From: Nannobrachium achirus | Lineage: Eukaryota > Chordata > Actinopteri > Myctophiformes > Myctophidae | DNA: 64,000 nt | Reading direction: 5' to 3' | Assembly: GCA_963921795.1 (NCBI GenBank) | Contig: OY997643.1 | Location: forward strand, 17,396,379-17,460,378 | In this document: piece after piece, positions 2,177 to 64,000 of the stretch | Layout of the letters: every line of letters starts with the position of its first letter | How positions within the stretch are numbered: the first letter of the stretch is position 1 | Notes under the pieces: model-generated | Told to the model about the DNA's origin: nothing | The model's input: the letters and a program-made list of their open reading frames with translations, nothing else | The model's database searches: none | Program-made: the position numbers and the translations under genes

Positions 2177-2540
2177 CAGGGGTCTTCAACGTTTTCAGGC
2201 CAAGGACCCCTTAGTTGAGAGAGAGAGAGATGAAGCAGGGACCCCCACAACCTGTTCATAGATTCCATATAGTTTCATTGTTTGGCAGTATGAGTGTATT
2301 TTGGATTCGTGTCAGTTTGTGTTTTCAGATATTTAACCACTTGAGCCGTCATTACCTAATACCTAATAAACTTGACCTTTCACTCTGTACTTAGTCTGCT
2401 CTTTTCCCCCTCTACACCAAACCTCTTTGCCGAAAATAGCAGATCTATAAAGCTCACAACGCCTCACAGCGCAAGGCGTTGTTAGCTTGTAGATCTGCTA
2501 TTTTTGGCTAAAGTTCTCAGAATATGGACACAACATTTTT
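2177..2540 (+). mobile_element. Type B hAT-like MITE fragment with hairpin module
   Basis: Starts CAGGGGTCTTCAACGTTTTC, as in the other type B copies, but the matching right end is missing. The hairpin module at 2432-2506 has both arms: GAAAATAGCAGATCTATA ... GTAGATCTGCTATTTTT. Confidence 0.7.
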
Positions 2541-2604
2541 TTATGACCACAATATAAATGTAAGACAGAATTCGTTGATGCATACATCATCAACATAAAC
2601 CAAT

Positions 2605-2893
2605 TATAATTAATTGCATTTTTATAGCGCTTTTCCAAGTGCTCTACAATGGTTCATTCATACATTGGGAGGTGAAGCGGTGAACAGTCGACGCCAGCAT
2701 CCTCACTTCCCACTTTCACGCAACAACGGTGGCAAAGCTGACACCGACCCACTCATTGGAGGCAATGTGGGGTTCAGTGTCTTGCCCAAGGACACTTCCA
2801 CATGTGAGGAGGAGGAGCCGGGATTCAAACCGCTGTCCCATGGATCATTGGACGACCTGCTCTACCTCCTGAGCCACAGCCACCCCACGTTAT
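2605..2893 (-). repeat. tRNA-derived SINE
   Basis: On the minus strand it begins with a tRNA-like head. The A box is TGGCTCAGGAGG and the B box is GGTTTGAATCC (seen as GGATTCAAACC on plus, about 2820). The body has the teleost CTTGGGCAAGACACTG block and the tail has GAAAAGCGCT. Confidence 0.8.
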
Positions 2894-3103
2894 ACTGAAT
2901 CTTTCTGTCCCAAAAGGACTCATCCTAAGAGGTCATCTGAGTACAAAAATCAATGTGCTCTAGAACATGGGCTCATTCCCCAAAGACTCTCATAATAATG
3001 AATGTAATCATGTATACTGTGTAATAAACTCTAAGATGTCTTATGTATACAGGGGTTAAAGCAAAAAAGAAAAAAAAATTATGTGACCGCACCCACCAAT
3101 TCA

Positions 3104-3402
3104 TTAAAGGGGAAGACCACCCATTTTCAATATTGAACTGTGTCATTAATATACCTTAGTGGAGTTGTGTGCAATAGAAACAAAGTTCCCCCCCTTCTGT
3201 GTTGCCTAGAACTGGAGGATTGATTGCAAAGTACAATGTGATGACATTACACCGTTGTACTTTACAATACAAACCCCAAAATCAATCCTCCAGTTCTAGG
3301 CAACACAGAAGGGGGGGAACTTTTTTTCTATTTCCACCCAACTCCTCTAAGGTATATTAATTACATATTTCAATATTGAAAATGGGTGGTCTTCCCCTTT
3401 AA
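3104..3402. mobile_element. Fully palindromic TTAA-flanked MITE (piggyBac-like)
   Basis: TTAA at 3104-3107 and 3399-3402 flank inverted arms of about 140 bp that start AGGGGAAGACCACCCATTTT and end with its complement. Nearly the whole element is one inverted repeat with a short centre near 3250. The TTAA target site points to piggyBac mobilisation. Confidence 0.85.
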
Positions 3403-3579
3403 GTACTGTATGCCTGGTTGTCAGGTGGCTGGTGACCCTACTGAAGTTAGCCACACCCACAGTGTAGGGTGTATGGTAAAGGGGTAGGGGATGATGTTAT
3501 GATGTCATTATATCAGTGTATTTGAGTTGGGCCTTTTGACAAAGAGGCTTTCAGCTTTCAGGAAGGGAAGACATATTTG

Positions 3580-3765
3580 CATATTATAACCACACCTGGG
3601 GGTCTATTAGGGAAATGTTAACTCCATAGACACATACAAAACATATTATAACCACACCTGGGGGTCTATTAGGGTAATGTTAACTCCATAGACACATACA
3701 AAACATATTAAAACCACACCTGGGGGTCTATTAGAGTAATGTTAACTCCATAGACACATACAAAA
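3580..3765 (+). repeat. Three-copy tandem repeat of about 60 bp
   Basis: Unit carries CATATTATAACCACACCTGG, then GGGTCTATTAGGG and GTTAACTCCATAGACACATA. It ends about 30 bp from the TRIM-like stop codon, so it probably lies in that gene's 3' untranslated region. Confidence 0.85.
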
Positions 3766-3796
3766 CTATGGCACCACCTCTTTAAGAACCAGATCA

Positions 3797-5089: not shown

Positions 5090-5159
5090 ACACTCAGGAA
5101 GAAATCTGTCCGAGTCAGTTGACTTTTAGCAGCAGGTTCTTTATGTCCGGCTCAGCATA

Positions 5160-6205: not shown

Positions 6206-6209
6206 TTTT

Positions 6210-6560
6210 CCATGCAATCACTGGGTCGGGAGTCTCGGGACCCATTTGTGGGTCGCAGACACATTTTTATGGATTGTTTTTGGTGTCCTACCTTTTTTTA
6301 TTATCATTATAATTTAAAAATATTTTCAAAAAACATTCCCAAAAAAACATTTTTTTCTCGTGTTTTTCAAAACAAAATTATTTTATTTTTTTCAGCCTAA
6401 TTCCATGAAGAAATCAACGAAATATCTAAGAAATTCCATAAATTAGAGCACAAAATAGTAGTGAAAATAGTTGATCTACAAGCTCACAACACGGCCCGAA
6501 GCGACCCATTGTGAGCTTGTAGATCTGCTATTTTCACTAGTTTGGGTCCCAGGCAAACAT
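6210..6560. mobile_element. hAT-like MITE (type D) with hairpin module
   Basis: Left part CACTGGGTCGGGAGTCTCGG then GACCCATTTGTGGGTCGC; right part TTTGGGTCCCAGGC. The hairpin at 6460-6538 has complete outer arms (GTGAAAATAGTTGATCTACA / TGTAGATCTGCTATTTTCAC form) and a degenerate centre. Confidence 0.6.
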
Positions 6561-6659
6561 ATCTAACCAGCTAAAAAGTTCAACCTGTCCCTGCCACGCA
6601 TGTTCAGAATGTTGACCTTCAGGCAATATGCAATATTATACATAAATAATAAAATAATA

Positions 6660-6660
<1 letters not shown>

Positions 6661-6703
<43 letters not shown>
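6661..6703 (+). repeat. (GAT)14 microsatellite
   Basis: Uninterrupted GAT triplets; reads as poly-Asp or poly-Ser by chance, not coding. Confidence 0.95.
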
Positions 6704-6704
<1 letters not shown>

Positions 6705-8600: not shown

Positions 8601-8616
8601 ATGAGTTATTATATTT

Positions 8617-8877
8617 TGTCGTTGCCGGGTGGAAACCTTGTATGTCCAAAACCGTTTGTTTTGTATTTATCATTTCAAAAATGATTTAAACTAGTGAAAA
8701 CAGCTGATCTACAAGCACACAACGCCTCGCACTGCAAGGCGTTGTGTGCTTGTAGATCTGCTGTTTTCACTACTTTTGTGCGACGGCCTTTTATGATGAA
8801 GCAGGGCTTTGCTTTGCGAAAAAATGTACAAATTTTAAACTTGGAGATACGAGGTTTCTGCCCGACAGTGACGATTT
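8617..8877 (+). mobile_element. Type C MITE built around the hairpin module
   Basis: Ends are inverted: GTCGTTGCCGGGTGGAAACC on the left and GGTTTCTGCCCGACAGTGAC on the right. The hairpin at 8693-8771 is nearly perfect and uses the CAAGCACACAACGCC arm with its exact complement GGCGTTGTGTGCTTG. The same family recurs at 50653-50902, and its right half inside 38879-39266. Confidence 0.8.
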
Positions 8878-9203
8878 ACTTTGTTGGCCGCCCAGCCCCC
8901 AAAATGGAACGAAGGCCGACATTGGCTGCGCTTCCCAAAGCGATTTTGAGTGCTCGTAAGCTCAGGCATGGTCGTAGAGACCAAAAACGTTTCAAGAACG
9001 CCCTCGCAGCCTGCGCAGGCACCTGTCAATCAAGAGCAACGAGGGCTTTCAGGAACCCGTTCGAGAGTGTACAATGGAACCAAATGGCTGTGATGACGGT
9101 TGAATGCACACCTTATACGAATGGCCATCGTAAGGAGGATTTTAGAAGCAAACACCTTTCCTGCAAGTTTCCCACGGGTGCTGCAGACGTACAATGTTTT
9201 TTT

Positions 9204-9725: not shown

Positions 9726-9729
9726 GGGT

Positions 9730-11559: not shown

Positions 11560-12106
11560 CAGTGGTTCTCAACCTGTGGGTCGGGAGCCCAGGGGGGGTC
11601 GCCAAATTAATTTGGGGGTTCGCCAGATGGTTAACTTAATGTGCAACATTGTTTTCTCACTCAACAGTAAACAAACCAACATAAAGTTTAAGTGTATAGA
11701 CGGTATCTGCACATTTCTAAAGTGACAATTTGAAGACTTTTTAATACCTCTAAAAATGACAAATTAAACATTGGCCAAATTGTCAAATATTAAAGGCAGA
11801 AATTGTGAAAATACTAGCGTTGCAAGGCGTTGTGAGCATGTACATCTGCTATTTTCACAATAGAACCATGTTATACAAAATGTAATGCCTCAACTCTTAG
11901 TGCTCATTAGCTTGTAGATCTGCTATTTTTGAAAAGTTGTGAAAATATGTGCAAATCTTTGAATATATGTATTTTTAAAGCGAACTTTTGTAACTCAAAT
12001 TTTGCTTCTGGGTGGTCCCTGGAACTAAATATTTTGAGATGGGGATCCGTGGCCAAATACATATCATTTTGGGGGTCCTTCACATGAAAAGGTTTGAGAA
12101 CCACTG
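11560..12106. mobile_element. Chimeric hAT-like MITE: type A left half joined to type E right half
   Basis: Left end CAGTGGTTCTCAACCTGTGG and the type A body run to about 11905 (CAACTCTTAGTGCTC). The sequence then switches to a type E body and right end GGTTTGAGAACCACTG. It carries two damaged hairpin modules: 11801-11861 (left arm lost) and 11908-11930 (right arm only). No matching 8-bp target duplication at the outer ends. Confidence 0.75.
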
Positions 12107-12290
12107 ACATAGTAGTCTCTCAAGAACAGACTAACTGAGCTCCAGTTAAGGGAAAAGGACCTTTTCTTTGACGATGGCTAACCAGATTGCTGACATAGAA
12201 ACATAGTTTTTTTTTTAAACCTCAGAAGGATTCAAAAGACACTTATAGAATCGGGTCAAAATTCTAATTTTCACAATAAAAAATAAATAA

Positions 12291-12347
12291 ATATCAGATC
12301 TACAAGCTCGCAGCGCGGCTGTGAGCTTGTATATCTGCTATTTTTCA
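12291..12347. repeat. Hairpin module, two arms, degenerate outer part
   Basis: CAGATCTACAAGCTCGCAG pairs with CTGTGAGCTTGTATATCTG; centre short. Lies about 150 bp upstream of DRAM2 coding exon 1. Confidence 0.75.
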
Positions 12348-12501
12348 ATAGTTAAAGCATAAAATAATGATACACAATAATGTGTACCCGTTCTATTAAT
12401 ATACATACTTAAAAAGAAGCCGTGCCAGTGACTCATTTTGCAGGGAGAAAGATGTACATCTCTCTCACACACTCATGATGACGTCTGTGTTTGTTCCAGG
12501 T

Positions 12502-12632: not shown

Positions 12633-15600
12633 GTATATGTGACATGTGGACCCCCTGGTGCCCTACATCAATGGTTCTCAACCTGTGGGTCGGGCCCCCC
12701 AGGGGGGGTCCCCAAATTATTTTGAGGGGTCCCCAGATGATTGACTTAATGTGCAACATTGTTTTCTCACTCAACGGTAAAGAAACCAACATAACGTTTA
12801 AGTATATAGAGGGCATCTGCACGTTTCTTAAGTGACAATTTGAGGACTTTTTAATACCTCTAAAATGACAAATTAAACATTGGCCAGAAATTGTGAAAAT
12901 AGCCAATCTAAACATTGGCAGAAATTGTGAATATAGCCAATCTACATGCTCACAACGCCTCGCATTGCGAGGCGTTGTGAGCATGTAGATCAGCTATTTT
13001 CACAATAGAACCATGTTATACAAAATGCCTCAACTCTTAGTGCTCGTCAGGGTGGGGGGGTCCCCAGTTAAAATAGGATTATCTTCGGGTCGCGGCCTGA
13101 AAAGGTTGAGTACCACTGCCCTACCATGGCCTGTATCCCAGCCAGTCTCCACACGTTGGTTTGTGAGTCGTGGCCCAAACGTTGCTAGGGAGAAACTTTT
13201 TTTTTTCTTTTTTATACTTTATTGAGTCAAGAGTGTAACATTCTCTTTGAATGCCTTTTCATTTCATTTCATTTGACATATACATTTTGACCCATTTCTT
13301 TTTTTTCCCCTTTTTTTTGTGTGCATACCTTCACCTACATAAAACACAAAACAAATCCACATAACAAGAAAACAAAACAAAACAAAAAATATACAGAGGC
13401 CCAAAAAAAATAAGATAAAGAGGCTTTTGTGATTGTGTCTGAAATACTTTTGGTTTGAACAAAAATACGAATAAAATGGACAAAACAAAAGGTAGAATTA
13501 AGTGGGCGTGTTATCCTTATTTAGGCCCACCTTTTTTCAAATACATTTTCCTTACCATTAATTGTAAATGTCACCTTCTCCATATAGTACATGTCCTCCA
13601 GTTTTTCAACCCATTTATCCACCCTGGGAGGTTCCAAACTTTTCCAGCCCCTTGATATTTGTTTGAGTGCTGTAATTCTCATAATCCAAAAGAGATATAG
13701 ATCTCCCTAGATGCTAGGGAGAAACTTGCACAGTCACAGCTGTCATGTGTTAGGGAGAAGGGAGTCAAACATTTTAACTTTGATTTATTTGACTAAAACT
13801 GAAGAAATAAGGCAATACACAAAAGAGACAGAACGACGTGTGAATAAGTCAGTCGTCAGTCACGTATGCAGTGTGTGTGAATGTGTGGAGTGTGCTGTGT
13901 GAATGTTAGGGTTTCACTCAGGCCAGGTGGCGCCCAAGACAGGACTAGAGAGGAACTAGAGAGATTCAGAAGTCCTTAAATACTCTCCCAAACCCACAAC
14001 CCCAGGTGTACCAAGTCTGCTCCACTCTGGCCATCACCAAGGCTGCCGGCCCGGCTAGCCAACACTGAGCCTTATAAACCTAACCCACTGGTTCCCAGAC
14101 TTTATAGCACGAGACCCAACAGTCTCCCTGTGACTCAAACACGTTGTAAGCTTGTAGATCTGCTATTTTCACTGTACTGCTTCTTAAAAGTAATTTATGG
14201 AATTTCTTCGAATTTACTTATTTATTCATGAAATCATTTGTTGCCAGTCAGATTGGAAATGTAAGATGATCATACCAGAGGCTTACAATTAGAGTATTTT
14301 AAAGAAAACTATCGTAACACTTATACTTTAGAAAAACGCACCACATTGCTGTGTGGAAGCAGGCGACTTCCTGGACCCTCCTCGGTCACGCTCTCTTCCG
14401 CGGGGAGCACGCACGTGGGGAGCGCGCACGTGGGGAGCACGCACGTGGGGAGCACGCACGTCATGCTTCAAGCAGAAGTGAGAGTGTAAAGACCTGACTG
14501 GTAATGCCTCTGAGTACAGATCTAGGTCAAGGATCAGATTTCCTTTTCTCAATCCATTATTGTGAAATCCAAACCATACCAAACCAAAATTCATGCTCCT
14601 TTTTTTGTGAAATGGTGAAATTATTGTATTCTTTTGTATAAAAGTATTGATTGTACATCACACATAATTATCTATTATAATTATTCTATGATAATTATTG
14701 TACATCAGCCAACACTGCCTGGGCTCCTCCAGGAACTCTAATGGCTCCTTTTTCCACTCTAGATGAAATAAAGTATTAGCTGATCTACAGGTTAATATGA
14801 GGACAATGTCTAAACAAGTGTTGTGTCATATTTTCATAGAAGGAACAAGGATCTGAGTCATAACCTGTTGATCAACTATTGTTGCCTGGTTCCAGACCAT
14901 AGACCCCGCCCACTCTCAGAGTGGACTCTTTCTCTGGTCTGGAGCTGAGTACAGGAATCGGCTTTAGCAACCCAAAAATTCTCTGCTCCAATGAGCGCGG
15001 GGGGTGGGGGGTGGGTCTAACGAATATCCAATCAGCGCAGCAGTTGAAACGATTTCAAACGAAGTTCACACACGACAGGCACACGCACACATACACACAC
15101 ACACACACACACGCACGCGCTGAGTTCACAAGCTGTTAATGTTGATTACATGTTTCTGGTCGCAGTTCTGTGTGAGCACGATGCGTCGCGATCACTCGCG
15201 CGCGGTCACGCACGCGCACGCTCGCAAAGTCCCTCCCCCGTAAATCATTTAGAATAGGGCACAGCTTCAGACTAAAGCGTGAGCTGAGTCTGAAATCAGG
15301 CTACAACTATTGTGTCAGAACTCAAAAATCCATTTTATTGCTATAGATGGCCATTTATACAATATCTGTTGTGGTGAGAAAATGCACATGCAGGACTTGC
15401 ATACAGTAATAAAACTCGACGATAGACTAAACTGGACATTTAATTGTAATTATTTTACAGCATTGTTGCGACGATAGACTAAACTGGACATTTAATTGTA
15501 ATTCTTTTAAGTGAACAAAGCTAAATTCTAATTATAAATTTAAACCTCCCTTATAATTGCCTTGCTTTCATTCCTACGTTGTGTCGACACTGTTGTACAG

Positions 15601-16862
15601 TACAGCACTATAACCCAGAAGTTTAGGGTTTATGATACAGCTGAATAGAATTTAAATGTATTGTTGTGTTTTGCAGTGATACATTTGAATAGATGTTACA
15701 TGTAGTGTTGTATAATACAGCTGACACAGGGATGCTGACAGAACCCTCGCTAAAAAGCCCAGGACTCATCCTAGAAAATTTGCCCTCCTGGCCCCCAAAC
15801 TGTGGAATAAACTCCCTGTTGCACTTAGAACTACAGACTCACTCCCTAGCTTCCATTAGAACTACAGGCTCACTCTCTAGCTTCCATTAGAACTACAGAC
15901 TCACTCCCTAGCTTCCATTAGAACTACAGACTCACTCCCTAGCTTCCATTAGAACTACAGACTCACTCCCTAGCTTCCATTAGAACTACAGACTCACTCC
16001 CTAGCTTCCATTAGAACTACAGACTCACTCCCTAGCCTCCATTAGAACTACAGACTCACTCCCTAGCTTCCATTAGAACTACAGACTCACTCCCTAGCTT
16101 CCATTAGAACTACAGACTCACTCCCTAGCTTCCATTAGAACTACAGACTCACTCCCTAGCTTCCATAAGAACTATTAGTTGTATATTGTAGTGATGCAGT
16201 CAAATATAATTAAATGTTTGGCTGTGTTTTGCAGTGATACAGTCATATATAATTAAATGTTTGGTTGTGTTTTGCAGTGATACAGTCATACAGTATATAA
16301 TTTAAATGTTTGGTTGTGTTTTGCAGCGATACAGGGACGACGGCTCCCGAGAGATGTGTGTTTGGAATCATGCTGGACGTGTCAGCATTCCTAGGTACCG
16401 TAACCTTTCTTCTATAACTCTATGACCGTAAAACCCATTCCACATTTTGAACGCAGCCTTTTTGCCTAATGAAACCTCCTGCAAAAGCGGCAGAGGCATT
16501 GTCTACGCTACGGCAAGCTGTGATTTTCTGCGATAAGAGGCGGATCGAGCAAAGAAAATGATCCAGAACAATGTCGGAAAGTTACACTTTTTTGCTTAGG
16601 TTTGCCGCGGCACAAAGCCAACCATGAGCTCGCCGTGGTATTTTAGGTGTTTTGTACTCAGGAGGAGGCAGAGCGGCTGCTTGGGAAACTTAAGGTTCCC
16701 AGTTCGATCCCCGGCTCCGCCTGCGTTCTTGTCGAAGTGTCTTTGAGCAAGGCACTGCATCCCGAACTGCTCCTGATGAGCATTTTGATGCCTTGCATGG
16801 TTTCCTCCACCGTCAGTGTGTGAATGAATGTAATGCACATTGTAAAGTGTCACAGCATAATG

Positions 16863-17500: not shown

Positions 17501-20500
17501 GGGGAAGGGTGGGTCAGCATGTGTGGTCAAGTATTATTATTATTATTAACAAACTGAATGTTTTAGGGTCAAATAAATTAGAGTGTGTGAAGAAACTACA
17601 GCATTGTAAAGCACACTAACCCCGCTGCACCCACCCAGTAGTGCTGTTGCACAGCCTCCACGACCACCGCTCAGTTCACACGGGTGTGATTTTTTTTAAA
17701 TCATTTGGTACCTTGGCTTAATTTAATTTGGCACAGATTCAGCTTTCTTTTGACATTTAAAGCATTGTGTGTAAACTCGTAAATAGTTGTATTATTAATA
17801 TTTGTATTATTTAGTTATTGTTGTTACAGCTCCCATGAACATGAATAATGCATGTGTCCCATGCGTGTTGCTTCCAGAAAACCACCCTGTTCTCCATGCA
17901 CCTGGTGGGGGCGGTGCTGACCTTTGGGGTGGGGGCTCTGTACATCCTGGTGCAGGTGCATTTGTCGCTCCGCATGCAGCCCCACGTCCACGGAAAGAAC
18001 ATCTTCTGGGTTCGCCTGGCCGTGGGGGTCTGGACCCTGTCCAGCATCATCAGCAGTATCCTTACTCACGCCAACTGAAAGACCCCTCCACCCAAAATGA
18101 TCATATTTGAGTCGAGGCATTACATTTAGTTTGACACGGTTCCACAGATGAATATTGTGAAAAAAGCAGATCTACAAGTTCACAGCACCTCGCGTTGCTA
18201 GGCGCTGTGAGCTTGTACTGTAGATCAGCTATTTTCTATTTTTTTGCCTCTTACTTTATTTGACAATTTAGCCAATGTTTGACCAGTTTTTATAGTATAG
18301 TTTGTTGAGTACTTTTGATGCAGTAATGGTCTTTTTCTTTTCTTTTCTTCTTTTTTTGGAGGTATTTAAAAGGTCTTAACTCATTTAGTGCCACCCTATC
18401 ACCACTAGAGGGCGCCCAGTGGCCATAGAATAATAGAGATATGCTGGTAATGCATGCCCAAGCCCTGGAGCCATGACTTGCCAGAACACTTTCCTTTGTG
18501 CATGTACAGGAAGAGAATGAAGTTAGCTTGAAGTTAGCTATTGGCTACCAAGCATTTTAGAAGATCTATTTTCGGCAATTTAGCCACGATTAAACCTTGC
18601 ACACCTCATGCATGGGAAAAAAACAGAGAAGAATGAGCTCTAAAAAATCCAATGCAATCCTGGATTGCATTGGAGTGGATTTGTGCAGTTTGTTCACAGC
18701 TTTCAAACAAAAAAATCCGATTGGAAATCCGTTCAGGCATTCTTGAGATAATAGCCATTATGTTTTACATGTTATGTAAACAAAAATGGCTGCCCTGTAT
18801 GTTAGATGGGGTTGTATGGGGGTGGAACATGCAAAATCGCGATTGAAATCATGTTCACTAGATTTGATGGGGTCCAAAAAAAATTTTTTCAAAATTTGAA
18901 CTAGTTCGGGATAGGCACTCTGGGATGCGATAATAATCCCGAACTAGTTCGGGATAGGCACTCAATGAGTTAAAAGTCCTTGAATTGTCACTTCACCGTC
19001 ATCTGGGGACTCCCTCAAAATCATGTGGGGACCCCGATCCACAGGTTGAGAAGCACTGGATTAGAGCACTTTGTTGAATATATATTTATGTGTGTTTTTT
19101 ATGTTGATTTTCAAATGGAACTCTATATACTTAGTAGCCCAGTGTCCCCCAGGGCCAAGGGTCAAATGTCTTTGTGTTGTGAGCTTGTAGATCGCCTATT
19201 TTTGGCACGTTCGCCTGTTTTGAGTCCTAGGGTTCATGTTGCTAAAACCCTGGACTTGGCATTTACGCCTAATGAAACTCAATTGCACCACTCCCTGGCA
19301 GTATTGTAAGTGGTGCTGCAGCTGGTCATCATCTATCTATAAATGCGAGAAGTCTCTGCGTGCGTGTCTGCGTGTGTGTCTGTCTGTAATCCGCGTATCT
19401 CGAGAACCGTTCGTCCCACCGGCTTCAGATTCGGCACGCGCGCTCCCCGCCGCGGCACGGAGTGCAGTGCCGGGCCTCGACCCGACCCGACGCGCGGTTT
19501 TCCCTAACCGCCGCGAAACGTTCGGAATCTCCTTATGCGGAAATCGGCGCAAAATCGGCGCAAGCGCTGAGTCATTGTGACATCACTGCAGTGCCGGGCG
19601 CAAGCGCTGAGTCATTGTGACATCACTGCAGTGCCGGGCCTTGCCTCGACCCGACAGATATCTCCGTATATGGGCATAAGACTGAGAACTCCATATACAG
19701 ATATCTCCGTATATGGGCATAAGACTGAGAACTCCATATATGGGCATATGGGCAGATACAGAGATCTCCATATATGGGCATATATAGACAGATATCTCCG
19801 TATATAGGCATAAAAGGGACACAGACTGATACAGAGATCTCCATATATGGGCATATGGGCAGATACAGGGGCCTAGCCTCGAACCGACAGATATCTCCGT
19901 ATATGGGCATAAAAGGGACACAGACAGATATATGGGCATAAAAGGGACACAGACTGAGATCTCCATATATGGGCAGATACAGAGATCTCCATATATGGGC
20001 AATACAGGGGCCTTGCCTCGACCCGACAGATATCTCCGTATATGGGCATAAAAGGGACACAGACAGATATATGGGCATAAAAGGGACACAGATTGAGATC
20101 TCCATATATGGGCATATGGGCAGAATAAAAGGGACACAGACTGATACAGAGATCTCCATATATGGGCATATGGGCAGAATAAAAGGGACACAGACTGATA
20201 CAGAGATCTCCATATATGGGCATATGGGCAGATACAGAGATCTCCATATATGGGCATATGGGCATAAAATGGATGCAGATATATGGGCATAAAAGGGACA
20301 CAGACAGAGATCTCCATATATGGGCATATGGGCAGATACAGAGATCTCCATATATGACTGATACAGAGATCTCCATATATGGGCATATGGGCAGATACAG
20401 AGATCTCCATATATGGGCATATGGGCATAAAATGGACGCAGATATATGGGCATAAAAGGGACACAGACAGAGATCTCCATATATGGGCATATGGGCAGAT

Positions 20501-23115
20501 ACAGAGATCTCCATATATGGGCATATGGGCATAAAAGATGGACACAGATAGAGTATATGCACACTCCCCACCGCGGCATATATGAGCATAAATAGACACA
20601 GGCAAACAGATGGTCAAAACGGGTCCTATGACAACAGGTATTATGGGATGAGCATAAATGGACACAGGCAAACAGATGGTCAATACAGGTCCTACAGAGA
20701 TCTCCATATATGGGCATAAAATGGACGCAGACAGACAGATAACTCCATATATGGGCATAAATGGACACAGGCAAACAGATGGTCAAAACGGGTCCTACAG
20801 AGATCTCCATATATGGACATAAAATGGACGTAGACAGATAGATATCAACCATATATGGGCATAAATGATAAATGGACACACGCAAACAGATGGTCAAAAC
20901 AGATCCTATGACAACAGGTATAATGGGGTTTGCATTAAAGGGCGGGGCATTCATCCCCTATTTACATTGTTCCCGAGTTGGCCAGGGCGCCGACTAGACG
21001 CTCGGCCGCCCGAAGGGCGGCCGAGCTTCTAGTTGTATTAAAATGGCCATGTTTGGCCAAACTTGGTTGGTATGTGTTCATGTACTGGCCTTGAGCCAAA
21101 AGACCAAAATAGGGACAGCAGGTTGAAGGTGATTAATACATTCGTCACTGTCTGGCCAACATCTCTTAACTCAATTTTTTAGGTTTTTGATTGTTTGGCA
21201 TAAATCAGGGCTATCACTCTTTACATCTGAGTGTTGGTTAAAATAATATTGAACCCATGGAAAGTAGTAAAAAAAGTGGTTGGGAAAAAACCTCCTACTC
21301 CACACTTTCTGCCAAACCAGCTAACTCCACCCGATTGGCCCTCTCTTTTTTTCATAAATATGTGCTATTGAACACCCTTTGCGTCTGTGTGTTGGTTAAA
21401 ATAATATTGAACCAATGAAAAGTAGTATAAAGACCTTCGGTCAAAACCTCCTAACTTCACTTGAGCCCATTTTCCTGAAAATGAACATTTTGGAGTTAGG
21501 AGGTTTTAGCCCGACAGCAGAGATATGTGATAGTTCAGTTCAGTGGCGCGTGTGTTCCTTAACGTGTGTGTCTTAGTGTTTGTGTCGTCGGTCATCATGT
21601 ACAGCAGTCTGCCAGGAGTGGACGTTGCTCACAAACTGCACTGGACGCCTGGAGAGACGGTGGGTTTGTCTGTGTGCTCATAACAATACTGTGTTGAAGG
21701 TTGAAGCCTCGTTTGCACTTTGTCTTGCGATGGCACATGGATTCAGTCGACTCCCACCAGAGAAAGTCAAAAGTCGAAGTTGAAAAAATATATACTTTCT
21801 ATTGTGAAAATAGCAGATCTACATGCTCACAACGCCTTGCGTTGCGAGGCGTTGTGAGCATGTAGATCGTCTATTTACACAATTTCGGCCTCTATATATT
21901 TGACAATTTGGACAATGTTTAATTTGTCATTTTAGAGGTATTAAAAAGTCCTTAAATTGGCACTTAAGAAATGTGCAGATACCCTCTATACACTTAAACT
22001 TTATGTTGGTTTGTTTACAGTTGAGTGAGAAAACAATGTTGCACATTAAGTTAATCATCTGGGGACCCACCAAAATAATTGGGGGGTAGTGTGTGATGTG
22101 ATGACGTCATCATAATGATAAAGTCGACTACAACTCAACTTTTTACTGAGTCGAGTCGACTTGCAAAAATTACTAGTCGTTAATGCCCTACACCACACAT
22201 CATCATAATATTATAATGATCATATTGTGTTGTCCAGGGCTACACTGCACACATCATCAGCACCATCTCCGAGTGGTCTCTGGCCTTCTCCTTCGTCAGT
22301 TTCTTCCTGACCTACGTCAGAGACTTCCAGGTAACAATATTTTTTTATATATATTTTTCTCCCAAATTTGTATTAATGCCATGAGAAACAATAAAACTTA
22401 GACCCGAGGCCGATTCTAAAAACGCCTTCTAAATCCTGAAGCTTTCTGAAAAAGTTTCTATATTCTGTACATAGCAACAACAACCCCAAAAGGGCTTCCC
22501 GGATTGAAAGGTATTGTTACGTATAGGGGTTCCTCCGCTGAAGATCAAACCGAAAAACAGTTTAAAAAAAAAAAAAAATTCCCCGCACTCAAGGGCATAA
22601 TTTTAGATCCTACCTAAAACCCTTCATGCGGCGTAGTTTTGCTTATTTTGGAATAGTTTGTTTGGTATGTCCATCTTTTAGCCCGACTCACAGCGACAGG
22701 CTGACTACACTACTCATAGCAATTAAATAGTGATTGGGGAAACAAACGGGAGGGACAAAGCAATGCTGCTTGCCTGCTTCTTCTGCCTGTTGCCGGTTCA
22801 GGCCACGCCTAGACCGGATCAGACGGCCCGTTTGAATACCAGGCTTTCCTCCGAGGTGAAAAGTCTGGTGACGCAAGGTTATCCCTTGATTAATGCTCGC
22901 ACGGTTGGCTTTTGCAGGAAGTGGTACAAACTTGAGCTTGTCTACTGATATTTACAACATGTTTTTTATCGCCTTCTTTCCCCCAGAAAATCAACCTACG
23001 AGCAGAAGCGGACCTTCAGAGCAGCCACCTGTACGACTCCCCTCACTACAGCATCACCTCACCTGTCAACGTCAACCCCTCTGAAACCTCCCCACTGCTA
23101 GCAGGGAGCATATGA
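12502..23115 (+). CDS. dram2: DRAM2, lysosomal autophagy modulator, 7 coding exons
   Basis: Coding exons join in frame with GT-AG borders: 12502-12632, 16327-16394, 16955-17097, 17878-18055, 21577-21659, 22238-22330, 22987-23115. The 274-aa product (human DRAM2 is 266) starts [20 protein letters not shown] and keeps the family's hallmark stretches: [56 protein letters not shown], and HKLHW followed by [21 protein letters not shown]-type sequence. Six hydrophobic segments fit the Frag1/DRAM/Sfk1 fold. The tail carries E265-x3-L269-L270, a dileucine lysosomal sorting signal also present in human (ERTRLL). Known role: lysosomal membrane protein promoting autophagy; human mutations cause retinal dystrophy. 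An acceptor AG at 12498-12499, two bases before the ATG, means a 5' untranslated exon lies upstream; I did not find it. Introns are crowded with MITEs. Convergent with DENND2D. Confidence 0.96.
12602..12670 (+). repeat. 39-bp tandem duplication of the DRAM2 exon 1 end
   Basis: The block from GACATGTGGACCCCCTGGT to CCCTACATCA occurs at 12602 and again at 12641. The second copy has lost its donor because a type A MITE is inserted right after CCCTACAT. Confidence 0.9.
12669..13118 (+). mobile_element. Type A hAT-like MITE with full hairpin
   Basis: Ends CAATGGTTCTCAACC and GGTTGAGTACCACTG. Flanks CCCTACAT and CCCTACCA look like an 8-bp target duplication with two changes. The hairpin at 12924-13006 (83 bp) uses TACATGCTCACAACGCC arms. 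Lies in DRAM2 intron 1, 36 bp past the donor. Confidence 0.85.
13183..13727 (-). mobile_element. 5'-truncated L1 LINE with 16-bp target duplication
   Basis: Flanked by TGCTAGGGAGAAACTT at 13183-13198 and 13712-13727. The minus strand encodes an L1 ORF2 tail ([20 protein letters not shown], then [20 protein letters not shown]) and ends in an A-rich tail at the low-coordinate side. Lies in DRAM2 intron 1, antisense to the gene. Confidence 0.88.
13735..15715. other. DRAM2 intron 1 middle part: repeat fragments only
   Basis: Contains a single right hairpin arm at 14141-14173 and a fish repeat around 14230-14600 that is related to 58330-58790 (shared TGCCAGATTGGAAATG-like and CATACCAGAGGC words). 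Also a four-copy 16-bp array at 14398-14462 (GGGGAGCACGCACGTG) and a (CA)n run at 15085-15117. No exon seen. Confidence 0.6.
14398..14462 (+). repeat. Four-copy 16-bp tandem repeat
   Basis: Unit GGGGAGCACGCACGTG with one changed copy (GCGCGC). Confidence 0.9.
15668..16330 (+). repeat. Tandem copies of the DRAM2 exon 2 splice acceptor
   Basis: The true acceptor TGTGTTTTGCAG with first exon bases CGATACAG ends at 16326. Near-identical TGTGTTTTGCAGTGATACA blocks end their AG at 15676, 16234 and 16277, and a decayed one lies near 16195. The 43-49 bp units also share AATTAAATGTTTGG. Confidence 0.85.
15726..16172 (+). repeat. L2/CR1-like LINE tail expanded into an 11-copy minisatellite
   Basis: 15726-15830 encodes the end of a LINE ORF2 ([18 protein letters not shown] then stop in one frame, with breaks upstream). 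From about 15830 the last 31-32 bp of that frame (AGAACTACAGACTCACTCCC then TAGCTTCCATT) is repeated about 11 times to 16172. Confidence 0.85.
16327..16394 (+). CDS. dram2: DRAM2 coding exon 2
   Basis: Completes the split Ser codon, then reads [20 protein letters not shown] and FL; donor GTACCG. The acceptor TTTTGCAG is the last of a tandem series of similar acceptors (see 15668-16330). Confidence 0.95.
16655..16862 (+). repeat. tRNA-derived SINE
   Basis: The head has an A-box-like CTCAGGAGGAGGCAGAG, then the B box AGTTCGATCCCC. The body has TCGAAGTGTCTTTGAGCAAGG and the tail has GCACATTGTAAAGTGTCAC. Its tail leads directly into the TG tract in front of DRAM2 exon 3. Confidence 0.8.
16863..16950 (+). 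repeat. (TG)n tract forming the acceptor region of DRAM2 exon 3
   Basis: About 43 TG units with a few GCGTG interruptions, followed only by TTTGCAG before the exon. There is no conventional pyrimidine tract. Confidence 0.95.
16955..17097 (+). CDS. dram2: DRAM2 coding exon 3, enclosed by two TG tracts
   Basis: Reads [17 protein letters not shown] through to CVVANFQ. The acceptor TTTGCAG follows a (TG)n tract with no normal polypyrimidine run, and the donor is the first GT of another (TG)n tract. The length is 143 nt, so skipping would shift the frame. Confidence 0.95.
17098..17164 (+). repeat. (TG)n tract starting at the donor GT of DRAM2 exon 3
   Basis: About 33 TG units. The first GT is the splice donor, so any of many in-register GTs could be read as alternative donors. 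Confidence 0.95.
17459..17499 (+). repeat. (CA)20 microsatellite
   Basis: In DRAM2 intron 3. It is complementary to the UG tracts at 16863-16950 and 17098-17164, so could pair with them in the transcript. Confidence 0.95.
17878..18055 (+). CDS. dram2: DRAM2 coding exon 4
   Basis: Reads [20 protein letters not shown] and onward through [20 protein letters not shown]. Ends one base into a Met codon; donor GTATCC. Acceptor TTGCTTCCAG. Confidence 0.95.
18140..19058 (-). mobile_element. Type A hAT-like MITE interrupted by a TTAA-flanked element
   Basis: In reverse orientation: hairpin at 18154-18236 near its start, right end GGTTGAGAAGCACTG at 19058. A second element occupies 18376-18973. The outer left terminus is lost. 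Lies in DRAM2 intron 4. Confidence 0.75.
18376..18973. mobile_element. TTAA-flanked MITE nested in a type A MITE
   Basis: TTAA at 18376-18379 and 18970-18973. Ends CTCATTTAGTGCC and GGCACTCAATGAG are inverted. A relative with the same core words (AAATCCGTTCAGGCATTC) lies at 42465-42890. Confidence 0.8.
19332..21032 (+). mobile_element. Non-autonomous Helitron carrying a tandem-repeat array
   Basis: 5' end TCTATCTATAAATGCGAGAA follows a host A at 19331. 3' end CTAG at 21029-21032 is followed by a host T. A GC-rich hairpin at 21001-21025 (CTCGGCCGCCC, loop GAA, perfect complement) sits four bases before CTAG, as in Helitrons. No Rep/helicase frame. The interior at about 19665-20900 is an array of ATATATGGGCATATGGGCAG and GATACAGAGATCTCC units mixed with GGGCATAAAAGGGACACAGA units. 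Lies in DRAM2 intron 4. Confidence 0.88.
21165..21515. repeat. Dispersed repeat with GGAGTTAGGAGGTTTT motifs
   Basis: Two internal sub-repeats share TGTTGGTTAAAATAATATTG and AAAACCTCCTA. An inverted copy of the whole block lies at 50920-51235. Confidence 0.75.
21577..21659 (+). CDS. dram2: DRAM2 coding exon 5
   Basis: Completes Met, then [20 protein letters not shown] and HWTPGET, matching the LxQKLHWNPED region of human DRAM2. Acceptor TGTCTTAG, donor GTGGGT. Confidence 0.94.
21735..22190. mobile_element. MITE ending TTAATGCCCTA, with a type A fragment and full hairpin inside
   Basis: Outer parts GAGTCGAGTCGACTTGCAAA and TTAATGCCCTA match the copy at 47609-47925. A type A body without its CAGTGG ends occupies about 21790-22089 and holds an 83-bp near-perfect hairpin at 21801-21883. 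Lies in DRAM2 intron 5. Confidence 0.7.
22238..22330 (+). CDS. dram2: DRAM2 coding exon 6
   Basis: Reads [17 protein letters not shown] and then [14 protein letters not shown], the last membrane segment. Acceptor TTGTCCAG, donor GTAACA. Exactly 31 codons, phase 0 on both sides. Confidence 0.96.
22987..23115 (+). CDS. dram2: DRAM2 coding exon 7 with stop
   Basis: Reads [19 protein letters not shown] and ends [10 protein letters not shown] then TGA at 23113-23115. Matches the human cytoplasmic tail in layout, including the acidic dileucine signal. Acceptor TTTCCCCCAG. Confidence 0.95.
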   Translation, partial: KINLRAEADLQSSHLYDSPHYSITSPVNVNPSETSPLLAGSI

Positions 23116-24479: not shown

Positions 24480-24769
24480 CAGTGGTTCTCAACCCAAAAA
24501 AATGGTGTTGCGAGGCGTTGTGAGCATGACGATCGGGTATTTTCACAATTTCTGCCTCTAATATTTGACAATTTGGCCAATGTTTAATTTGTCATTTTAG
24601 AAGTATTAAAAAGCCCTTCAATTGTCACCTTAGAAATGTGCAGATACCCTCTATACACTTAAACTTTATGTTGGTTTGTTTACTGTTGAGTGAGAAAACA
24701 ATGTTGCACATTATGTTAATTATCTGGGGACCACCCTGGGGGTCGCGACACACAGGTTGAGAACCACTG
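24480..24769 (-). mobile_element. Type A hAT-like MITE with half hairpin
   Basis: Ends CAGTGGTTCTCAACC and GGTTGAGAACCACTG. Flanks GGCTAGAT and GGCTAGAG form an 8-bp target duplication with one change. Only one hairpin arm remains (24509-24550), joined directly to the left end. Confidence 0.88.
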
Positions 24770-25064: not shown

Positions 25065-26185
25065 ATAGAGACTTCAGAAAACTGTTTGGAAGACTCAAGT
25101 CTTACAGGGTTAATATGCTAAATTACAATGTGAGAATGATTTGTTGGTATGTTTGTCTGACAGCTTTGTTGCTAAACTGCTACCTCTGCTTTGCCACAAG
25201 ATGGGGAACTTGCCTAACATTCTGTGTTCTGATTAGTATGTCATACATGAAACATACTATTGCCTGTGCACACAAAAGTATATTGATAAATAGCATGTGA
25301 TTTCGGATGCAGAAGATATTTTCTGATTACTGAGAGCTGGAGAGGCAGGGAGACCCCTGTTAATGAACTTTTTAAAAGATTTAACTTGCAGCACCTTTAA
25401 CCAATGTGTATTGGTTTATTGAGCCACGAAATGTGGCTGTCTCTGTGTATGCCACTGTTTATAATGACACAAAGTGTCATCATCAAACTAAAACACAAAT
25501 AATTTTATTATACTAATAATGTATGTCTAACTCAACAACCCGCTTCACCAACTGACAAGAACATGGCAGCTTACTGTACAGTTTAAAGCAACACAGAAAA
25601 CTAAAACATGCTGGGGGCATAATGTCTGTTGATGCTTTTGTTTTGTAATACCGGTATGTATATTATAATTGCAAATTATATATAAAAATAAAAAAAATAT
25701 ATATTAAACTAAAATATCAGTGGACCTTTTTCAAATTAACATTTAAAACTTGAATGTAACTTTTCCTGTAGTCATCATTGTGTTGTTTTCGTTTTGAAAG
25801 TACAAGTTTATTATTTAAATGTGTGTAATTGAGGTTGTCGTTGGGACCTTGGGATGTGGCGACTGCAGAGAAGCAGGATTGATCCTTAAAAGGCAAAACA
25901 AGCTCACAATGCATCGCATCATGATGCTTTGTTTGCTTGTAGATCGGCTGTTTTCACTATTTTGGATTGGATTTTAATTCTCAGCTACTAAGCCACTGGG
26001 TGGCAATGAATACAACACATTATCACAATCACTTAATACATAAAACACCTCCTGAGCCTCTGTAAGGAGTTTGAAAATGAAAGTGTCTAAAAACAAAACT
26101 ACACTGATGGGAAATGATGAACCAATCCATTCCACACAGAAGCAGAGGAAATGAAGGGGCTTTTGTATCAAAACGAAACTACTGT
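25065..26185. other. DRAM2-DENND2D intergenic stretch, no gene seen
   Basis: AT-rich. A degenerate hairpin module lies at 25892-25958 (right arm GCTTGTAGATCGGCTGTTTT). Nothing coding recognised. Confidence 0.5.
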
Positions 26186-26189: not shown

Positions 26190-26975
26190 AAATATACCGT
26201 CCAGTTAAAGAGGAATATACCGGTCCAGTTTAGGAGGACAGCTGAATATGTAAACAGAAACCCATATCTTTGGGAATTCCAAACTGCAGCCCAAAGGCTA
26301 CCGTGTTCAGTGGACAGATGGGTGGACCCTGATCCACTGGCCTAATGTATGAAACATTAACCTAATATATTAAACATTAGCTCATATACATAACCTAATA
26401 CAGGGGTCTTCAATGTTTTCAGGTCAAAGACCCCTTAGTTGAGAGTGATGAAGCAGGGACCCCCACAACCTGTTCATAGATTCCATATAAATGTAGTTTC
26501 ATTGTTTGACAGCACAATCATCTGTGTATTTTGGATTCATGTAAATTTGTGTTTTCAGATATGCAGCGGGAGGCGTAGTGAGCTTGCAGATCTGCTATTT
26601 TTGGCTAAAATTCTCAGAATATGGACACTAGGGTTCAAGTGGTTAATATAAAAAAAGGAGAAAAAACTTTTCTATCACACAAATATTTGGAGGACCCCCT
26701 GTAGTAACTCTGAGGACCCCCTGTTGAAGACCCTTGACCTAATATATGAAACATTAGCTCATATAAATAACCTATTGCCGCCTCATTCAAGTCTGCTTTT
26801 CAATACTTGCAGTTCATTTCCAACAAATAAACTGCATTTTCATTCAGTCTTCATGATGAGGCCGTTAACGTTGATATCTGATTCTGAATAATTGTTTGTT
26901 CCAGTGTTGACAATTCTCGATTTTATTCTCATGAAAAAAAAAAAAAAAAAAAATGATATTGCTTGAATCCCATCA
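26190..26975. repeat. Duplicated segment, copy 1 (with MITE inserted)
   Basis: Matches 29655-30135 in the same orientation. Shared words: CCATATCTTTGGGAATTCC, CTCATTCAAGTCTGCTTTTC, TATTGCTTGAATCCCATC. Copy 1 has an extra type B MITE at 26401-26736 that copy 2 lacks. Confidence 0.85.
26401..26736 (+). mobile_element. Type B hAT-like MITE with exact target duplication
   Basis: Ends CAGGGGTCTTCAATG and TTGAAGACCCTTG. ACCTAATA flanks both sides (26393-26400, 26737-26744). One hairpin arm at 26570-26605. Confidence 0.9.
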
Positions 26976-27975: not shown

Positions 27976-56403
<28,428 letters not shown>

Positions 56404-56413: not shown

Positions 56414-57000
56414 TGGAGAGAGAGACAGGGAAACACAGCGGAAGGTGTTCAGTGTGAGCACTACAGTAGAGAGAAACAAACACAGAGGAAGGTGTTCAAT
56501 GTGAGCACTAGGGATGGGACGATATGAACATTTCATATCACGATTATTGTGACAAAAGAAATCGCGATTTACGATATTATCGCGATAATCAAAATCCATT
56601 AACCCGGTGGCGGAACATTTGCCATGAAATAGGCGATCTACAAGCTCACGACGCGTCACATTGTGAACTTGTAGATCGCCTATTTTTTGGCAAAGACATT
56701 TGATAGAGAGTGGAAAAAAAGACTGTATCAAGTACGTATATTATAAGTACATTTTTACCAATTATAGAGTGTTTAAGTGGTACCGGATATGCAGCTAGGC
56801 AAATAAAACGTGAATTGAACCCAGTGCATGACGGAGGACGATATCACGATGTACAAATCTCCACGATACGATTATAGTGAGTGTTTTTTATCACGATAAA
56901 CGATAATATCGCTTATCGTCCCATCCCTGAGCACTACAGTAGAGAGAGACAGAAACACAGAGGAAGGTGTTTAGTTTAGTGTGAGCACTACAGTATAAGC
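56414..57000. repeat. Tandem units upstream of DENND2D exon 1, split by a MITE
   Basis: Three units with AAACACAGAGGAAGGTGTT and GTGAGCACTACAGTA; the second is interrupted by the element at 56510-56928. Confidence 0.8.
56510..56928. mobile_element. hAT-like MITE (type G, AGGGATGGGACGAT ends) with hairpin
   Basis: Inverted ends AGGGATGGGACGAT and ATCGTCCCATCCCT; GAGCACT on both sides. Hairpin at 56624-56688 pairs GAAATAGGCGATCTACA with TGTAGATCGCCTATTT, matched changes on both arms. Confidence 0.88.
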
Positions 57001-57200: not shown

Positions 57201-57247
57201 TGTTGTGAAAATAGGCGAACATGCTTGCAGATCGTCTATTTTCACAA
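57201..57247. repeat. Reduced hairpin module
   Basis: GTTGTGAAAATAGGCGA pairs with TCGTCTATTTTCACAA; centre only ATGCTTGC-like. Confidence 0.75.
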
Positions 57248-57280
57248 TGTTTACCTCATTTGTATGTGATATGTAGCAGA

Positions 57281-57356: not shown

Positions 57357-57395
57357 ATAATTTGGGGAACCCCATGATTTGAGAACCTCCGATTT

Positions 57396-58305: not shown

Positions 58306-58329
58306 CTGTACAGTATATCACTGTTTCCC

Positions 58330-60180: not shown

Positions 60181-60351
60181 CCCCCCCCCTCCCCTCCCCT
60201 CCCCCAAGATCAGGGCCCACTTGAAAATGCCACAGTGTTCACGGACACCCACTCATCTAACCCAGTGGTTCTCTGGGTTGGGACCCAGATGAATAGCTTA
60301 ATGTGCAACATTATTTTCTCACTCAACAGTAAACAAACCAATTGTTTAAGT

Positions 60352-61031
<680 letters not shown>

Positions 61032-61256
61032 ATAGTATAGATAGAGGGTTACTATCTGCACATTTCTAAAGTGAAAATTGAAGGACTTTTTAATATCTCA
61101 AAAATGACAAATTAAACATTGTCCAAATTGTCAAATATTAGAGGCAGAAATTGTGAAAACAGCAGATCTACATGCTCACAACGCCTCAAAACGCAGGGAG
61201 TTGTGAGCATGTACAGTAGATCTGCTATTTTCACAGTAGAACCGTGTTATACAAAA

Positions 61257-61953
<697 letters not shown>

Positions 61954-62237
61954 GTAATGCCTCAACTCTTAGTGCTCATAGGGTGGAGGGTCCCCCTCAT
62001 CTAACCCACAGGGTGCTTCTGGCTAGTTACATGCATGGGTAGGCAATCTGGGCATGTTTATTTTAATGACAATAATGACCTATCGATAGGCTTCAGGATT
62101 GGATCAATGAATTTATTTTTGCGAGAAATCTTGTTTGTTTTGCCAATTATTTGGAATCTCCTGAGGGCTCACTGGCTGGGAATCACAGCACTACAGATGA
62201 GAGAGATAAGGAAGAATGAAGAATGGAGAAGAGAGCA

Positions 62238-62727
62238 GGGGCGTCAATTGGGTATGGCAGGGGTATGCAGCTGCCATACCCAGGGGGGGGGGGGAATAAA
62301 AGTTACTTTTATATAAAAATCCATGAATGTCTCTTTGTCTATCTGTTCTGGTTATTATGTTGTTAGATTACAGTAAAATAACTACAAATGCAAAATGTAA
62401 CAAACTGGTCACTTTAACAAGGTATTATAATTATATTCTCCACACTTTGACAAGATGGTATATTCCCAGGTTCTGCAGGTCAGCTGCACAGGTGCAATGC
62501 ATTATTGTTAATTGTGGCACGTTTACTAACATGACAAGTTTAGCTGCACTTGAACAACCGCCATATCCAGCCCAAGAAACGTGGAGAAAAATAGAATGTA
62601 CTTCTTAAAATAAATGTATCATGCCTGTTGCTAAGGTATGGCAACATGACTGGTGTCTTGTCGCGTGCGTGCAAGACACCAGTCATGTTGCCATACCTTA
62701 GCTTTTTCTGAACTGACGCCACTGGAA
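62238..62727. mobile_element. MITE with its own 73-bp palindrome
   Basis: Ends GGGGCGTCAATTGGGTATGG and TGACGCCACTGG. At 62630-62702 a perfect palindrome with 31-base arms (CTAAGGTATGGCAACATGAC, then TGGTGTCTTG) is unrelated in sequence to the common module. Confidence 0.8.
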
Positions 62728-62729
62728 GA

Positions 62730-63245
62730 GAGATGGAACAGGAAACCTCTGCCAGAGGTTCAGGCTGGATGTTTCAAACAAAGAGAGCGGAAACAAAAGA
62801 ATGACTTGGTTTCACTTTCAACATGACATGGAGAGACCCTCTGAGACATAAAACCCTTTTTTAAGACATAACAACTGAGAAAAACAAGCATGTCTGACTG
62901 TACCATGTGCTGTTTACATTTCTGACTAACAAAGTATTCAATCAATAAAAACAAAATAAAAACTCGTGTTTTTTTATACAAAATGAAATTAGAGGAATGA
63001 TCCGGGTACTCACGAATAACAGGAGGAAAAAGTTATGAATAAAAAGTCTCCTTTATTCAAATGTTTGAACCAACATGTTTAATCAGTCTTCATCAGCAGA
63101 ATCAAAAACAAACAAACACTGTGTTTGTTTGTTTTTTGTTTTCATTCTTTTTACAGACCCGGATCCGTCCTCTACTTTTTATGAGATTAGATAATGTTGT
63201 TGAGCAATATGAGATTAGAACTAACTCCTAGGAAACTGCACGTCT
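62730..63245. other. Intergenic stretch, nothing recognised
   Basis: No exon or transposon end; several AATAAA-like words. Confidence 0.4.
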
Positions 63246-63249
63246 GCTG

Positions 63250-63430
63250 CAAAAGTAACTAAGTACATTTACTTAAGTACAGTACTTAGGAGGTATTTGT
63301 ACTTTACTTGAGTATTTCCAATTTCCAATACTTTTACTTCTACTCCACTACATCTAGGATCCAAATACTGTACTTTCACTCCACTACAATTATTTTTAAA
63401 CTTCAGTTAGTTACTTTGCAGATATAAATT
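63250..63430. mobile_element. hAT MITE fragment
   Basis: AAGTAACTAAGTACATTTAC then TTTGTACTTTACTTGAGTAT, a very common fish hAT terminus. Confidence 0.75.
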
Positions 63431-63667
63431 ATATTAATATTACAAAACACTTTTCTTCTCTTTTTTCTCTGTGTTCTGAATAGGTGTTTCCTATTAAGAA
63501 GATATGTGTTAATTCTGTTGAACTTTTGTTTCTAGCTTTTTACTGAATTAAAATTTAAAATGTGTTTCATGTGCTCTGAATTGCCTAAACCTGCCTTGCC
63601 TAGAAGGAACAGAAGGTCTCTTGGAAGAGGAGATTTTGTCCAACTAAAAGATGAAATAATCGAATGC

Positions 63668-64000
63668 ACTGGTTCTCAGAGTGAGGTTTGGGGACCCTGA
63701 AGGGTGATTGAGGGGTTTCAGGGGGTCCCCCAGCAAAAAGAGGAACAGTTATATTTTCGATGAATTGCCCAGCCCTACCAAGAAGGCAAAGATACAAAGC
63801 TAAACAAATGAGACCACAATGCAAAGCACAAAATTAATGTGTGCTAAAAACATGCAGACTGCAGACTAGAGTGAGAAATCCTGTGAAATATATTGGAAGG
63901 AGGGGGAGAAGAGGCTGATACTTCATCATATAACAGTGTCACGCAAAAGCAGCAAAAATAGTCGATCTACAAGTTTGTAGATGGACAGTTGGGGATTCAA
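63668..64000. mobile_element. hAT-like MITE cut by the window edge
   Basis: Left end CACTGGTTCTCAGAGTGAGG and GGGGGTCCCCCAGC; a hairpin remnant at 63952-63985 (AAAATAGTCGATCTACAAG). Confidence 0.6.

Follow-up and report, generated by a model that had tools for sequence, protein, structure and literature searches.

We analyzed a palindromic hairpin that recurs throughout a 64-kb window of Nannobrachium achirus DNA (positions 17396379 to 17460378 of contig C6; "the window" refers to this whole stretch). One hairpin core is present in many host elements of different types. One branch of it lies in TTAA-ended elements, which in one hAT family sit inside the hAT copies; between families its two arms change together, and inserted copies show no homogenization of their arms. 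We consider the chances about even that the hairpin is an old domain of many non-autonomous DNA elements, spread by nesting and rejoining.

A hairpin core is abundant in the window and in the genome

We searched the window by BLAST with three arm variants (cutoff of at least 24 bits) and found 60 arms, corresponding to 40 hairpin copies, 20 two-armed and 20 one-armed. The identical search of a reversed control, made from the window and the random 200 kb, found no copies. The original prediction, made from the letters of the window, had put the number at about 40 copies in 64 kb, and this holds; at least one arm lies at each of the 23 positions that it listed, with only a weak second arm at 63952, the window end. 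Matches to the arm GAAAATAGCAGATCTACA in the window numbered 4, 20, 34, 51, and 57 at 0, ≤1, ≤2, ≤3, and ≤4 mismatches, compared to means of 0, 0, 0.03, 0.03, and 0.93 in 30 dinucleotide shuffles. The stem folds in all seven representative copies (z from −14.7 to −5.7).

The outer base pairs of the palindrome are family-specific, and the hairpin edges carry no constant target duplication. The single 83-bp unit of the original prediction, which would need fixed edges, was therefore not recovered, and we rejected the bare hairpin as an independent transposon of ~80 bp. TTCT repeats that flank the hATa hairpin look by eye like a 4-bp duplication; we dropped this candidate, as they are present in no other family.

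The genome comprises 1.66 Gb in 564 contigs. Genome-wide, the exact 18-base arm had 30,843 + 31,152 matches (control, 0 + 0). Twenty random stretches of 10 kb (C1 to C20, first 40 Mb; 5,200 of the 200,000 bases are N) held 89 copies, 54 two-armed and 35 one-armed, or 4.45 per 10 kb; the window exceeds this density, with 6.25 copies per 10 kb. Scaling from this small sample gives an estimate of 738,000 copies (bootstrap 95% interval, 522,000 to 970,000). At ~60 bases per copy, hairpins would fill two to three percent of the genome.

Rfam models had no matches in the whole window (gathering threshold) or in 31330-31600 (E ≤ 1), and two hairpin patterns had none in viral contigs. Five hairpin pieces of 14 to 17 bases had a single match among published sequences, which is algal and of primer type. 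In one genomic stretch (L006 2127-2701), 14 hairpin-arm pieces form a tandem array, in which the arm is now part of a satellite-like repeat.

The core is carried by many host elements

We clustered the outward flanks of 166 copies (window plus stretches L001 to L028, ~290 kb; E < 1e-6); of 252 flanks, 89 stayed single and the others formed 26 clusters. After left and right flank clusters were paired by hand, there were at least 12 host families: hATa, hATa' (with two hairpin sites), hATb, D, TCG, AGGGAT, GGGCTC, fam5, fam9, fam11, fam15, and L009_370/L022_1075. A flank in common with another sample copy was found for 55 of the 89 random copies. The hATa' unit is ~600 bp long with one hairpin near each end, and the fam5 hairpin occupies one fixed place within another repeat.

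Two of the hosts have the 8-bp target duplication by which hAT miniature inverted-repeat transposable elements (MITEs) are recognized. In hATb it is perfect in three copies (L021, L027, and window 26401-26736) and matches at 6 to 7 of 8 bases in seven further copies (filter, ≥6); in hATa it matches at 8/8 (53639-54222), 7/8 (24480-24769), and 6/8 (12669-13118). TCG and GGGCTC are candidate PIF/Harbinger or Tc1/mariner MITEs, for which duplications of 3 bp (TWA) or 2 bp (TA) would be expected; TCG element ends mostly adjoin TA, and two GGGCTC copies have CTA/CTA and TTA/TAA at their ends. The claim of one palindromic core in many hosts is thus borne out across element types with different target duplications. 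One entry in the original list of hosts does not stand: the supposed CAGTGTTTCTCAACC family (38879-39266) is really a hAT copy enclosing a TCGTCG-type element (38971-39178).

We compared 159 between-family flank pairs for homology beyond the hairpin. It was significant only for hATb-fam15 (z 5.5) and hATb-AGGGAT (z 5.0); other pairs, TCG-fam11 among them (z 3.7), gave weaker signals. Descent of all hosts from one ancestor, which the original prediction had named as the finding that would count against it, is therefore seen for hATb, AGGGAT, and fam15 and not significantly for hATa, TCG, and D. Subterminal sequence next to the ends CAGTGGTTCTCAACC, CAGTGGTTCTCAAACC, CAGGGGTCTTCAAC, and maybe CACTGGGTCGGGAG appears similar by eye, and these hosts perhaps form one hAT tribe. 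A kinship of D and TCG, suggested by eye from a shared 8-base outer arm, was rejected; over 45 bases it is not significant (z 2.1, 13 of 400 shuffles).

The hairpin-bearing features of the window are as follows.

2177..2531 (+): hATb copy; hAT-type end at 2177, TTAACCACTT terminus 2333-2342, two-armed hairpin 2428-2508; right part recognized only to ~2531
6459..6539 (+): two-armed hairpin, family D; element start CACTGGGTCGGGAG at 6219, TAGTG-type outer arm
8612..8879 (+): TCG element; ends TCGTCGTTGTCGGG, hairpin 8692-8772
11560..11905 (−): hATa copy; one-armed hairpin 11821-11858
11909..12394 (−): hATa' unit matching L015 2886-3389; arm 11909-11929, two-armed hairpin 12289-12344
12669..13118 (−): hATa copy; two-armed hairpin 12927-13003, target duplication 6/8
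18157..18236 (+): two-armed hairpin; diverged hATa flanks
21797..22085 (+): hATa part; two-armed hairpin 21804-21880
24480..24769 (+): hATa copy; target duplication 7/8, left end nearly abuts the apex of one-armed hairpin 24509-24546
25880..25959 (+): two-armed hairpin; no host recognized
26401..26736 (+): hATb copy; perfect 8-bp target duplication ACCTAATA, one-armed hairpin 26566-26605, AAGTGGTTAA terminus 26637-26646
30259..30693 (−): hATa copy; two-armed hairpin 30496-30572
31335..31597 (−): hATa part; two-armed hairpin 31396-31472
33434..33650 (+): hATa' part; short hairpin 33434-33477, flank combination hp2-right x hp1-right
35324..35356 (+): one-armed hairpin with hATb flanks; left arm gone, base to apex
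38971..39178 (+): TCG element; hairpin 38995-39075, nested in the CAGTGTTTCTCAACC hAT copy 38879-39266
40569..40747 (+): hATa' part; two-armed hairpin 40652-40718
42162..42376 (+): GGGCTC element; palindromic over its full length (75% self-complementary), hairpin core 42235-42290
45325..45404 (+): two-armed hairpin; hATb right half, TAGTG-type left outer arm
50088..50141 (+): two-armed hairpin, family D
50648..50904 (+): TCG element; hairpin 50728-50796
53270..53380 (+): family D; short hairpin 53270-53314, end CAGTGGTTCCCAAAC at 53380
53639..54222 (+): hATa copy; perfect 8-bp target duplication GTGTAGGC, one-armed hairpin 53936-53973
56510..56928 (+): AGGGATGGGACGAT element; flanks GAGCACT/GAGCACT, hairpin 56623-56690, shares sequence outside the hairpin with hATb flanks
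57201..57249 (+): short two-armed hairpin; no host recognized
61041..61256 (−): hATa part; two-armed hairpin 61153-61234
63955..63985 (+): hairpin at the window end; first arm clear, second weak

Beside its hairpin, the hATa copy at 53639-54222 seems by eye to hold a second small element (GGGTGTGCCA...TGGCACACAC, adjoining TA).

One branch lies in TTAA-ended elements nested in hAT copies

One branch of the hairpin sits in TTAA-ended elements with the inverted repeat TTAACCACTTNARCCCTA. The pattern TTAACCACTT N20-50 AAAATAGCNGATCTAC has 5966 + 6022 = 11,988 exact matches genome-wide (control, 0 + 0). Several clearly different spacer types occur among 100 listed pattern places, and the motif NARCCCTA, which goes beyond the bases required by the pattern, is common to most of 13 chosen spacer types. 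Either AAGTGGTTAA or GGGTTAA forms the end of several flank families, with conservation stopping at TTAA; in two hATa' flank families, it ends directly after GGGTTAA. The form of the TTAA unit is constant across several contexts. Judged from their sequence, the TTAA and the inverted repeat probably represent a piggyBac-like target, which would place the unit in that superfamily.

In hATb, an inner unit of ~208 bp (TTAACCACTTGAACCC...hairpin...GGTTCAAGTGGTTAA) is enclosed in a hAT copy. We examined ten hairpin-bearing hATb copies with target duplications of 6 to 8 of 8 bases. Both TTAA termini lie inside six of them, all six of which had been fetched for one TTAACCACTT end; among the four not chosen in this way, two have one TTAA terminus and two have none (≤1 mismatch). 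The TTAA unit is nested in hATb hAT copies and amplified along with them. The original idea that the hairpin is a mobile unit colonizing MITEs therefore survives for one branch, in the form of a TTAA-ended element inside hAT copies, and is not supported for the bare 83-bp hairpin. A hAT copy at 49474-49700 has hATb-type ends, no hairpin, and a remnant TTAACTACTT at 49623; it resembles an internal deletion rather than an empty site.

Arms change together between families and independently within them

We compared the arms position by position in 105 copies, leaving out L006. Arm position 10 is heteromorphic, mostly A versus C, in 41 of 99 two-armed copies, and the mismatch is found in the groups P1/AGG, TCG/D, hATa, fam5, and fam9 as well as in unassigned copies. 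Its recurrence suggests that it is the mark of one ancestral palindrome. Heteromorphy exceeds background at positions 14, 24, and 33 as well (24%, 23%, and 31%), at 14 and 24 largely because of fixed arm differences in hATa'.

For covariation, we used 21 of the 23 listed window copies, all except 53270 and 63952. Between-family covariation was 0.152, compared to 0.082 in shuffles (reached by 0 of 500) and 0.028 to 0.045 in slid structures. Both sides had changed in 12 pairs (reached by 12 of 500 shuffles) and in 35 cells, versus 12.5 in shuffles (0 of 500), counts that can be inflated by the relatedness of the sequences. Changes in both arms were also found at positions 6, 19, 22, 27, 31, and 16.

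Within families, the two arms of a copy are about as different from each other as from the arms of other copies. Own-arm and other-copy divergences were 0.061 and 0.063 in P1 (9 copies), 0.062 and 0.061 in hATa (11 copies), and 0.076 and 0.067 in hATa' (17 copies), and an earlier test in the window agrees (hATa, P 0.11; TCG, P 0.67). When families are pooled, own-arm divergence is lower (0.112 versus 0.160), as the both-arm differences between families predict. Arms thus decay independently within families, with no homogenization after insertion. Because both arms change together between families and drift within them, symmetry would be renewed or selected in breeding lineages rather than in resident copies. 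On the strength of the both-arm changes, our guess is that the paired form matters in breeding copies, for example in the handling of transposon DNA or as a hairpin RNA.

Damage and possible rejoining at hairpins

Apex-deleted and one-armed copies are common; among the random copies, 35 of 89 are one-armed. In one family, the number of bases between fixed hairpin flanks was 60 to 90 in 1,394 copies and 30 to 59 in 842 copies. In the twelve shortened copies listed, the losses are mostly centered on the apex or run from the apex towards one base. At L041, the left half of a fam5 element is joined to the right half of a hATb element within the arm. The one-armed, shortened, and L041 copies fit breakage at hairpins, and we make no claim that hairpins are lost faster than other DNA. 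Three hATa' copies (W_33437, L010_7896, and L027_6293) have exchanged flank combinations, which fit inversion or exchange at hairpins and may have other causes.

Other observations

Seven piggyBac transposase genes, some of them possibly related and so not fully independent, are flanked by fourteen 1.1-kb stretches (L045 to L058). Eleven of these stretches contain no TTAA, where ~6 to 7 occurrences per stretch would be expected (1,221 in the 200-kb random sample); AATT and TATA are not missing. Internally, these piggyBac elements may be purged of their own target site, a loss that would avoid self-insertion. Beside one piggyBac gene, a TCG-type hairpin element is present twice together with its neighbor (L049 151-892; 671 bases apart).

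The window also contains two tandem arrays, at 15825-16174 (31-bp unit, 11 copies) and 32031-32520 (46-bp unit, 11 copies), and two open frames assigned by eye. The one at 3797-5125 (−; 442 aa) appears TRIM-like (RING, coiled coil, B30.2/SPRY), and the one at 35885-37012 (−; 375 aa) resembles the end of a reverse transcriptase of a long interspersed element.

Possible explanations for the shared core

In the explanation that we favor, a large tribe of non-autonomous DNA elements would carry the palindromic domain, which would be old and, at full length, ~75 bp long. Within one branch, it forms the center of TTAA-ended elements with the TTAACCACTTNARCCCTA inverted repeat. These units were probably moved into their hosts by a piggyBac transposase and, once nested in other elements such as hATb, would have been multiplied by the transposase of the host. 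The core in hATa, TCG, D, and GGGCTC, which have no recognizable TTAA ends, presumably stems from older nesting or from rejoining at the hairpin. The hairpin would be prone to breakage and arm loss, and rejoining there probably makes new families and combinations. In an extended form of this explanation, DNA transposons would harbor the hairpin as a selfish structural domain, equivalent to the conserved domains of short interspersed elements, that is kept paired, crosses superfamilies by nesting and apex rejoining, and raises the copy number of its carriers; we regard this as a tentative and somewhat doubtful proposal.

Several results weigh against nesting and rejoining. In 34 of the 89 random copies, the flank matches no other sample copy; the flanks of hATa, TCG, and D have no significant match to the TTAA branch; and none of 22 hATa' copies has the position-10 A/C mismatch. 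The L041 chimera could alternatively be a deletion between neighboring elements. We joined the flanks of two-armed copies in the sample as queries for empty sites and obtained 17 spanning matches, all of them self-matches or hairpin-holding. For hATb, the predicted empty junction had 28 matches genome-wide at ≤3 mismatches (control, 1), none exact or convincing. MITE copies without the hairpin and with an intact junction, proposed as a check in the original prediction, were thus not recognized in the sample or, for hATb, genome-wide. Of 116 scored piggyBac matches, 7 were examined over 1.1 kb on each side, and the TTAACCACTT end pair was absent there; these stretches probably do not reach the element ends.

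The paired hairpin could itself be selected, with cruciform DNA or hairpin RNA aiding any carrier, whatever its termini; elements would then have captured and retained it time and again. The strong stems and many hosts suit this idea, and the both-arm changes between families fit it without proving it; covariation counts may be inflated by relatedness. However, arms diverge freely within families, hATa' has fixed arm differences, and hairpin-less and half-hairpin copies are common; we judge selection on the hairpin a rather unlikely account. Symmetry might instead be a by-product of mutation, if template switching in quasi-palindromes copies arm onto arm and extends the palindrome outward without selection. 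Although the outer palindromic extensions are family-specific and palindrome-type deletions are seen (12 strings), the A/C mismatch is retained in all groups except hATa' and inserted copies show no arm homogenization; we judge this process quite improbable as the source of the pattern.

Simple descent would derive all hosts from one hairpin-bearing hAT MITE, with termini and flanks diverged beyond recognition. The related ends of several hAT-type hosts (by eye) and the flank in common between hATb and AGGGAT are what it would predict. It is improbable, given that targets differ among hosts (8-bp duplications in hATa and hATb, TA flanking TCG, TA or CTA at GGGCTC), as does the distance from hairpin to element end, while the TTAA unit keeps one form across its contexts. 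The bare hairpin as a palindromic transposon in its own right, similar to MADE1, would account for the near-perfect palindrome of ~80 bp and for the TA that borders it on either side in TCG and in some D copies; constant duplications at the palindrome edges would then be expected, and the family-dependent edges make this very improbable.

If nesting and rejoining are correct, MITE families would, besides decaying from autonomous parents, pass a core module among themselves, and an estimated several hundred thousand repeats would be due to one hairpin. The many families in one genome would offer a natural test of whether hairpins help or harm transposons. For repeat annotation, a shared core can merge unrelated families.

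Comparison with known systems

A core module common to different transposon families is an unusual case. A literature search for a hairpin common to MITE families found none, in a coverage that mostly excludes subscription papers, so that this absence proves little. MADE1 is a palindromic mariner MITE of ~80 bp, a near-perfect palindrome with TA duplications. There the palindrome is the whole transposon, whereas the similar-sized hairpin described here is a core inside larger elements. PiggyBac-type MITEs are bounded on both sides by TTAA and short inverted repeats, as is the inner unit in the six hATb copies fetched for one such end; this unit differs in its long central hairpin, its nesting in hAT copies, and the lack of a matching autonomous copy among the seven piggyBac genes.

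Joined halves have a precedent in the composite P-MITE AgaP2-P12, in which halves of two families form one MITE (PMC1562414), although the accessible part of that report describes no shared hairpin at the joint. hAT-derived MITEs are reported at inversion breakpoints in cod, according to the available portion of that study (PMC12368964). The nearest parallel, by analogy, is provided by the conserved domains of short interspersed elements (SINEs) together with MER6, as presented in the accessible sections of one paper (PMC6887750). The CORE, V, and Deu domains are conserved in unrelated SINE families, with function unproven; as here, one conserved central domain occurs in many families with different ends, but here derivatives of DNA transposons carry the domain, which is palindromic and has changes in both arms. 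The composite MITE MER6 holds a nested, conserved SINE domain that is amplified by it, likewise a foreign conserved domain multiplied by its host. According to the same sections, MER6 involves one host family with hundreds of copies per genome, whereas the hairpin described here has many hosts and an estimated several hundred thousand copies.

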